Origin: Nitrospirota bacterium
Lineage (GTDB): Bacteria > Nitrospinota_A > UBA7883
Assembly: GCA_024275315.1 (NCBI GenBank)
Contig: JAJRZK010000033.1
Location: 1 to 64,000, forward strand
Reading direction: 5' to 3'
Length of the DNA: 64,000 nucleotides
Shown: in pieces, positions 30,656 to 54,242 of the stretch
Layout of the letters: the number at the start of each line of letters is the position of its first letter
Position numbering within the stretch: the first letter of the stretch is position 1
The notes under the pieces: model-generated
Told to the model about the DNA's origin: nothing
Database searches by the model: none
The model's input: the letters and a program-made list of their open reading frames with translations, nothing else
Translations under genes and position numbers: made by a program

Positions 30656-31738
30656 TTATTTTAACTCTCTTATCAGCCCCCTGATAAGCTTTCCCATGAG
30701 CCCCGCGTATCTGCGCCCAGCTTCCGCTACCAGCTGATGGCTGAGCGGCTCATCATCGGCGGAACCCGAGGCGTTGTTGACTATGAGAGCGAGCGCAGTC
30801 ACCGGCACACCCAAATGCGCGGCGGCGATGGCTTCCGGAACCACGGACATGCAAACCGCATCGGCTCCTGTCGACTGAATCCAGGATCGTTCCGCCCGGG
30901 TTTCATACACCGGTCCCCGCACCCCGGCCAGAACTCCCAACTGGCGCTTGACCCGGGCCCTGCGGCAGATTCGCTCCGAAGCGGATATGATCGATCGATC
31001 ATACGTCGACGACATATCGACAAAAGGAGACGGATCGTAGTACGGGTTCGTCCCAAACAGGGGATTGTCACCCATAAGGTTGATATGATCATTTACAAAC
31101 ATCACATCCCCCGGCCGGAACAGCGGATTCAACCCGCCCGCCGAGGTGGTAAGGATGAGATGCTCCACACCCAGCGTCATGAAAGTGCGAACGACGCGAA
31201 CGGTCTCTTCCATGGAGCCGGTCTCGTAATAGTGCAACCTGCCTTCACAAAACAAGACGGGAACCCCATCGACAACTCAGGCGCGAACTTGTCCGGGATG
31301 CCCTTCCACTTCCGGTTCTATAAAACCAGGGATTTTTGAAAACAACACCGGCTCGCCTGCGACAGAGTCGGCGACCGAGGAGAGGCCCGACCCAAGCACA
31401 ACCGCCACTTTTGGCTTCACCGAAAAGCGTCTTCTTAGATACGTGGCGGACCTTTTCATCTCTTCGGCCACTTCACCTAAATAAATGTTTTTGGACGCGG
31501 AAACGAAAGATGTCGTCAATTCCAGGTTTATCACAGCGGGACCGGGGCCAGAATCATCCGCTTTTCTCCTGCGGATCTGTTTTCTGGGCTTTTTAGATTT
31601 TCCGGAAACCTTTACCTTGAACTGGGTGCCATCCGGGTGGGATTTTATTTCGTACTCCTCGTTGTCAATGATTGTGATTTTCCTCTTGGAGGAGCTGGCG
31701 GAGGTTTTTCCGCCTTGGGAGGGAGTGGCTTTCGACAC
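30656..31738 (-). pseudogene. Purine nucleoside phosphorylase, interrupted by in-frame TGA
   Basis: Two same-frame pieces (31738-31277 and 31276-30656) together give a PNP/MTAP-type phosphorylase: KVAVVLGSGLSSVADSV, IPGF, EGHPGQV, then after TGA at 31277-31279 VVDGVPVLFCEGRLHYYE, SAGGLNPLF, GPVYETRAE, MSVVPE and IVNNASG. The frame is perfectly continuous across the stop; homologues usually have Gly there, so GGA to TGA is the simplest change. It would cleave purine nucleosides with phosphate. Not functional unless the stop is an error or is read through. GTG 31738 is only a nominal start: upstream reading frame continues into the basic segment. Confidence 0.8.
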
Positions 31739-40932: not shown

Positions 40933-42207
40933 ATGAAATCGAACCAGGAACCGGCCAGACGGGTGAAGGGTGTCCGGGACATTTTGCCTGAGGAGGCGGC
41001 TGTCTGGCGTGATGTGGAGCAAACCGCCAGGAAAGTTTTTTCTTTATACGGCTTTCAGGAAATCCGAATCCCCATTTTTGAAAAGACGGAGGTCTTCGTT
41101 CGATCCATCGGAGAGACTTCCGACATCGTGGAAAAGGAAATGTACACATTCACCGATCGTGGCGGTGAATCGCTTACGCTCCGACCGGAGGGTACCGCAT
41201 CGGTGGTCAGGGCGTACGTGGAAAATCGTATGGACAATCTCGCCGGTGTTCAAAAACTCTATTATACAGGCCCCATGTTCCGAGCGGAGCGGCCCCAGGC
41301 TGGCAGGTTTCGCCAGTTTCACCAGATCGGCGCCGAGGTCTTTGGCACGGAAAACCCCGCTATCGATGCGGAGTTGATCGTTATGCTGATGGATTTTTTC
41401 GGAGCGCTTGAAGTCGAAGGTCTGAAGGTTTCGTTGAATTCTCTCGGTTGCCCCCAATGCCGTCCCATGTATCGTGAAGCGCTCGCCGGATTCCTGAAGA
41501 AAAACATGGAGTCGCTGTGCGCAGACTGCCAACGCCGGGTGGAGCGAAATCCCATGCGAGCGCTGGACTGTAAATCCGCTGGATGCAAATCCACCGTAAG
41601 CGGCGCGCCTTCCCTGGAAAACTATCTTTGCCAGTCATGCCGGGAGAGCCTTGATGGTGTAAAAAAACCGTTATTCGACCTGAAAATCCCCATTGTCATC
41701 GATCCGGGCCTGGTCCGGGGACTGGATTACTATTCCCGCACCGCCTTCGAGGTTACATCCGGCCAGTTGGGAGCCCAGAACGCTGTCGCCGGCGGCGGCA
41801 GATACGATACCCTGGTAGAGCAATTCGGCGGACCGCCAACACCCGCCATCGGGTTTGCGCTGGGGATGGAGAGACTGGTCAGCCTGCTAAAGCAACCCGG
41901 GAAAGTCACCGCTCCTGATATCTACCTGATAGCGATCCAGCCCGAAGCCGAATCCAGGATTTTCGAGCTTGGCCATCGGCTGCGCGCCGAGGGCTATTGC
42001 GTCGATCGCGGATAGGGTGGCGGTAAGCTGAAAAAACTTATGAAAAAGGCCGATAAATCGGGAGCCAGGTTCGTCATCATAATCGGTGAGGATGAGCTGG
42101 CGCGCTCCACCGCCATCCTCAAGGACCTCAAACTCGGCTTGCAGAGGGAAGTCCCGTTTGACAACGTGGCCAGTTCGCTTGTGAACGATATTCCTCCCAG
42201 GTATTGA
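40933..42207 (+). CDS. hisS: Histidyl-tRNA synthetase, interrupted by in-frame TAG
   Basis: The class II catalytic core is complete: GVRDILPEE, motif 2 region LRPEGTASVVRAYVE, GLDYYSRTAFEV, GGGRYDTLVEQFGG and GFALGMERL. The frame stops at TAG 42013-42015 (after ...GYCVDRG), but continues unbroken in the same frame with GGGKLKKLMKKADKSGARFVI...GEDELA...EVPF to TGA at 42205-42207, the normal HisRS anticodon-binding domain. Complete length would be 424 aa; the stopped product is 360 aa without most of that domain. TAT or TAC (Tyr) to TAG is a one-base change. Confidence 0.9.
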
Positions 42208-52713: not shown

Positions 52714-54242
52714 ATGCGATGCATAGTCGTCGATGATATGGGCCCGATGCGGCGCACGGTAGCGCTTGCGTTGCGGGATCTCGGGTTTGACGATGTTCTC
52801 AACGCGAAAAACGGGAAGGAAGCGTTTGACATCATTATCGCCCAGCATGATATTCCCTCGAAAAACATAGAGCTCGCCGTGGTGGACTGGAACATGGCTC
52901 CGATTACCGGTCTCGATCTTCTCAAGATGGTGCGAAAGGACAAGAGAACCAGGAACATCTTTTTTTGATGATCACCGCCGAACAGCTCCAGGACAACGTT
53001 GTCGCCGCCATCCAGGCCGGGGTGGATGAATATATAGTAAAACCGTTCACGCCCAAAACGTTAAAGGACAAGTTGATCACCGTCACCAGGCGCAGGCTTC
53101 GTGAGATCAACAGCGACATCAAGGAATACCTGGAAAGTCATACTCCCGGAGTTGGAGCGGGGGAGCCTGATGCGGGGTTAAATGGCCGATTGAAGGATTT
53201 CCGGGCACGGCTGTTGAAGTTGATGGAGATTTCATCCTGGAGTCACATCATCCCCCTTGAGCTTGGAAGACTGTCGTTTAAAGCCGGGGACTATGAAGAC
53301 GCCGAAAAATGGTTACGCAAGGTTTTGTCCATAGATTTTGGATTGTCGGAGGCTCATCATCTCCTGTCTCTCACCCTCCGTAAACTGGGCAAGATAAATG
53401 AATCGATCAGGGAACTGGAAATCGCGGTGGTGGAGAGGCCAAAATCCGGGGACCTGAAGCAAAAACTGGGTGAGGCGTATATGCAAGAGGGGAAATACGC
53501 CAGGGCCATAGAGCTTATCACGGAGTCCATCGCCATATTCAACCAGCAAAAGGACAGAAAAAAACTTGCCCGGTCAAGAAATTCACTGGGGCAAGCCAAG
53601 ATCATCAGAGGAGAAAAAGAAAACGACGAAACCGCCACCCAAGACGCGGAGCGTGACATAAGAGAAGCCGTAACACTCGATCCGGGGCTGATGGCGGCGC
53701 ATTACAATCTCATGGTTGTCTATAAAAAAACCGGCAGGGACGCCGACGCCGCGAAACAGCTTGACCGCATCCGGCGAATGGAGCCAAATGACGCGGAGGG
53801 TTGGATCGTTATGGGAAAAATGTACCTTCACCGATCGGAAATTCCGAAGGCGAAATTCGCCTTTAAAAAAGCTGACGGACTGTCGGAGGGCAAGTTCGCG
53901 GTTTACGAGGAGATATCAACGCTTTTGTATAACCACAAGATTTTCGACGAAGCTCTGACATACCTGGACAAAGCCGTCGAGGCGAATCCTTCTGACATAT
54001 TTTCCTACAATCTCAAGGGGATAATCTACAGAACCCTGGACAGACATAAAGAGGCGATCCGCGAATACACCGCCGCCGTAAAGCTGGAGCCGGACAACCC
54101 CGGCCTGATATTCAATCTTGGTGTAGCGTACTTCAAGTCCGGTGAAGAAAAAAAGAGCATGGAAATATTTGCAAAAGTAAAAACGCTCGATCCGGGGTTC
54201 AGGGAAGCCGATGAATATCTCAAGCGCCTCGAGGCAAAGTAG
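52714..54242 (+). CDS. Response regulator receiver with TPR domain, frame broken by a T7 run
   Basis: The CheY-like receiver (DD at 7-8, phosphoacceptor D58 in VVDWNM) runs to IFF and hits TGA at 52966-52968. In the -1 frame LMITAEQ...VDEYIVKPFTP continues directly, with the conserved Thr and Lys of a receiver, followed by about 350 residues of TPR-type repeats. The break is at seven T (52960-52966); eight T would restore a single 510-aa protein. It converges on a histidine kinase 8 bases away, a probable partner. Confidence 0.85.

Follow-up and report, generated by a model that had tools for sequence, protein, structure and literature searches.

The window analysed here, a stretch of 64,000 nucleotides, lies on contig C24 of a draft assembly of 2.9 Mb in 63 contigs that is rated 100% complete. 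It carries hisS, the essential bacterial gene encoding histidyl-tRNA synthetase (HisRS), as an open reading frame (ORF, 40933-42015) that starts with ATG and ends, after 360 amino acids, with the in-frame TAG codon noticed in the first-pass annotation. The same frame goes on from 42016 with 63 sense codons, followed by a TGA stop codon at 42205-42207 (Table 1), and the continuation that had been reported past the TAG was thus also recovered. When read through the TAG, the frame matches the NCBIfam profile TIGR00442 with 493.9 bits (cut-off, 286.75) over 404 of its 406 positions (2-405), a score within the 473-508 bits reached by the top-scoring intact hisS genes of related genomes. The locus is therefore a single gene bearing a single lesion, rather than a pair of genes or an ORF arisen by chance. 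Like the bacterial class IIa HisRS enzymes grouped in TIGR00442, the product comprises a catalytic domain and an anticodon-binding domain and is encoded by a single copy, but the frame of the window differs from theirs by its single interruption, the TAG at residue 361. The anticodon-binding domain (PF03129, HGTP_anticodon) spans residues 330-416, so the TAG cuts inside it. The earlier statement that a normal anticodon-binding domain follows the TAG is right in that PF03129 is recognised in the 63 post-TAG residues alone (1.6e-07), but the domain does not begin there.

Table 1. Coordinates (positions in the window) of the hisS features and of the other two lesions found in the window.
Feature	Position	Strand	Basis or remark
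hisS (histidyl-tRNA synthetase) frame with one in-frame TAG	40933..42207	+	TIGR00442 2-405/406, 493.9 bits
PF13393 catalytic domain, residues 13-315, complete upstream of the TAG	40969..41877	+	Pfam
PF03129 anticodon-binding domain, residues 330-416, split by the TAG	41920..42180	+	Pfam
In-frame TAG, hisS residue 361	42013..42015	+	Sequence and alignment column of 99 relatives
Post-TAG part of hisS, 63 codons and TGA	42016..42207	+	PF03129 match, conservation versus relatives
TGA in purine nucleoside phosphorylase-type (PNP) gene; open in relative G004	31277..31279	-	Second nonsense lesion in the window
T7 run, frameshift between response-regulator and TPR parts; one open frame in relative G007	52960..52966	+	

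The comparison with related genomes, which had been proposed as a check, revealed a stop at the position of the TAG in none of 99 related hisS genes, none of which is conspecific or congeneric. The corresponding column is occupied by Y (45 genes), F (20), A (15), L (7), H (6) and other residues; given this variability, no particular residue is demanded there. Of the 75 columns in which at least 95% of the relatives agree, the hisS of the window departs at none, and the mean identity of its post-TAG segment is 0.36, as compared with 0.31-0.37 for the same segment in intact controls. Judged from these alignments, the gene is healthy apart from one base, with no visible decay. Its best match is a hisS from the same family (L010, genome G003), a relationship that fits vertical inheritance. 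In the species-level genome collection, the closest named hisS (62%) is that of the Nitrospinaceae MAG UBA7883, of which G004, a genome of the same family, appears to be the sequence. The TIGR00442 profile search of the whole 2.9 Mb assembly returned no second hisS: the remaining matches (33 bits or less) are pieces of longer, different frames, which we take to be those of other class II synthetases. The description of this gene as the only hisS copy seen, made from the window, therefore holds for the entire assembly, and the intact second copy that was thought might exist elsewhere is absent from it.

As regards the rest of the genome, about 1.25 Mb (approximately 43%) was surveyed for genes continuing in the same frame across a stop codon, using codon usage and homology. 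The codon-score screen yielded many neighbouring genes lying in the same frame (short spacing, new start codon), which were sorted by hand; true lesions were told apart from neighbouring genes by eye, so that the counts rest partly on judgement. In the homology screen, matches of antisense ORFs were discarded. Beyond hisS, the survey revealed eight in-frame stops in conserved genes, comprising all three types of stop codon. Besides the TGA in the PNP-type gene of the window (Table 1), they are TAG codons in the genes of an NtrC-type regulator and an RpiR-SIS regulator, and TAA codons in the genes of an EAL-domain protein, MotB, RarA/MgsA, an isochorismatase-like hydrolase and a macro-domain protein. 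In several of these nonsense-hit genes, matches to solved structures or to Pfam domains reach or span the stop. The eight genes are probably dispensable, and they may be real pseudogenes.

Three frameshifts were also found, all of them at homopolymer runs, namely the T7 run of the window, a C3 run in contig C18 and a G9 run in glyS (L228 near 19200, which corresponds to contig C31 near 109,200). The glyS gene is essential, and its only copy in this genome is split into two frames. With hisS included, the nonsense and frameshift lesions number nine and three, respectively. In the homology screen alone, 10 lesions (seven nonsense and three frameshift) occurred in 140,689 aligned codons of this genome, versus none in 86,131 aligned codons of the two relatives G004 and G007 screened in the same way; all 10 would land on this genome with a probability of about 0.008. 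The lesions are unevenly spread, as a second sample of 400 kb contained no nonsense lesion.

A further TGA (L254, 4729-4731) occupies the place of the first cysteine in the WCxxC motif of a thioredoxin-like protein (W-TGA-G-Y-C). The genome has a selenocysteine tRNA, and a hairpin with a GU-containing loop lies about 15 bases after this TGA, with a fold z-score of only -0.9. This gene likely encodes an ordinary selenoprotein, unlike the case of hisS.

Concerning a possible mutator lineage, the genome has no match over the cut-off for the MutY family, and the inferred changes at several nonsense lesions look like transversions. The loss of MutY was uninformative as an explanation, most of the relatives also being without a match over the cut-off. 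One match of the MutY search that seemed to contain stops is an intact endonuclease III-like frame, the stops lying past its end.

The assembly itself shows several anomalies. No 16S rRNA was found in it, and tRNA-Ile(GAU) and tRNA-Ala(UGC) are absent among the tRNAs found. In contig C15 (67,712 bp; L170 and L242), the central 12,288 bp were tested and proved to be exactly self-complementary, and the contig carries two tRNA-Ser genes at mirrored positions; this palindromic contig is likely an assembly artefact. Taken together, the lack of 16S rRNA, the missing tRNAs and the palindromic contig indicate that the 100% rating is no guarantee of base-level or structural accuracy. The lengths of contigs C10, C13, C17 and C61 (100000, 100800, 106500 and 145000 bases, respectively) are unusually round for an assembly.

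From these lines of evidence, we propose, with a probability of roughly 80%, that the TAG was produced by a metagenome-type consensus error or a minority base, and that hisS is ordinary in the living organism. The TAG would then most likely reflect a wrong or minority base of the assembly rather than a new biological feature. What decides for an assembly artefact is that the hisS TAG is not isolated in this genome. An imperfect consensus is the simplest process that accounts for stops of all three types together with homopolymer frameshifts, including lesions in two single-copy genes for essential synthetases. Wrong or minority bases would be scattered through the consensus of a metagenome-type draft assembly, and one of them would have turned a sense codon into TAG at a variable position of a vertically inherited, single-copy hisS. 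The base would be wrong, or a minority variant among the reads, and absent from the expressed gene in most cells; the living organism would have an open hisS and make a normal HisRS of approximately 424 residues. Of the three origins proposed at first, base-calling error and population variation are thus jointly favoured by the scattered stops, the homopolymer frameshifts and the glyS lesion, while suppressor readthrough is left unsupported.

A study of conserved in-frame stops names sequencing error among the four sources of such stops, and eliminated it by accepting only stops that recur in at least two species (PMC7918605). Like nonsense or frameshift artefacts in draft genomes and MAGs, the hisS TAG is an isolated lesion in a conserved gene, is shared by no relative (0 of 99) and is accompanied by unrelated lesions elsewhere (eight nonsense and three frameshift), one of them in an essential gene, glyS. 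It differs from them in that substitutions outnumber frameshifts here, and in that its artefact status is deduced from the consensus sequence. The smaller number of frameshifts (three versus nine) differs from what a raw long-read assembly would show, and it counts against a consensus error, as do the uneven spread of the lesions and the probable dispensability of the eight other nonsense-hit genes.

Other explanations were weighed against this one. That hisS is a decaying copy whose intact counterpart is missing from the assembly is very unlikely; an assembly devoid of 16S rRNA and some tRNAs is not truly complete, but it is rated 100% complete and has a single hisS in its 2.9 Mb, and this gene is undamaged apart from one base and has its closest match in the same family, as expected from vertical inheritance. 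That UAG is read as pyrrolysine, or through a suppressor tRNA dedicated to it, is the least probable of all, hardly to be credited, as nothing other than the TAG itself speaks for it. In the profile search of the assembly, the best match to PylS reached 19.4 bits (cut-off, 178) in a frame of 589 residues that also holds a weak match to the hisS profile, and we therefore take this frame to encode another class II synthetase; the matches to PylB did not exceed 88 bits (cut-off, 348). The tRNA search returned 45 loci above the RF00005 cut-off and one weak locus, the anticodons of which, read with ARAGORN, make up an ordinary set plus the selenocysteine tRNA (UCA). None of them has a CUA or UUA anticodon, though this search could overlook a tRNA of very unusual form, and no suppressor tRNA emerged when 40 stretches and the window were scanned directly. 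Both release factors, RF1 and RF2, are encoded by intact genes, and TAG terminates 70 of the 236 long ORFs sampled (TGA, 107; TAA, 59), findings that led us to reject a genome-wide reassignment of TAG as a sense codon. The lack of conservation of the TAG column also argues against pyrrolysine.

It is likewise improbable that the TAG is real in the population, in a lineage tolerating many nonsense codons in conserved genes, and that HisRS is made only by UAG readthrough or in a truncated or split form. In the readthrough version, itself unlikely, the TAG would be fixed or common, and enough full-length HisRS would be made through ordinary low-level readthrough by a near-cognate tRNA, which would lower HisRS expression. 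The normal constraint on the post-TAG part is consistent with it, and many bacterial genes have been described in which in-frame stops are maintained by purifying selection (PMC7918605); like hisS, these are constrained genes with an in-frame stop. That study demanded, however, the same stop in at least two species, and the hisS stop occurs in no second genome, the relatives compared including no congener. In addition, RF1 is intact, no suppressor tRNA was found, and no inverted or direct repeats that could favour a structured readthrough element were seen near the TAG. Readthrough would also leave the frameshift in the single-copy glyS unexplained; if the hisS stop were real and read through, this frameshift and the TAA and TGA lesions would have to be explained separately. 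That HisRS functions in a truncated or split form is less probable still, and very unlikely. This reading supposes that the 360-residue product charges tRNA-His via the acceptor stem, perhaps together with a C-terminal fragment restarted downstream. In favour of it, the whole catalytic domain precedes the TAG, an ATG codon lies eight codons past the TAG, and bacterial HisRS charges acceptor-stem minihelices and microhelices, the anticodon being a minor determinant, according to a tRNA-identity review, the one source returned by our literature search on truncated HisRS (PMC9976931). The earlier claim, according to which tRNA recognition requires the missing domain, was therefore too strong. With the catalytic domain complete and microhelices being charged, even a real TAG would be less absolute in its effect than first thought. 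Against such an enzyme, the cut falls inside the anticodon-binding fold and not at a boundary, no relative is split at that point, and no convincing ribosome-binding site, as judged by eye, precedes the downstream ATG. A truncation of HisRS in the middle of a domain would still be expected to be harmful.

Our preferred explanation, a wrong or minority base in the consensus, carries a lesson about data quality, namely that in a genome rated 100% complete, about one conserved gene in every 100 kb can be broken, including two single-copy genes for essential synthetases. Given such a density of lesions, gene losses, pseudogenes or recoding should be deduced from this genome only with the reads at hand. 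If the TAG were true, an essential synthetase would rely on the readthrough of a stop codon or work without a whole anticodon-binding domain, and either would be remarkable.
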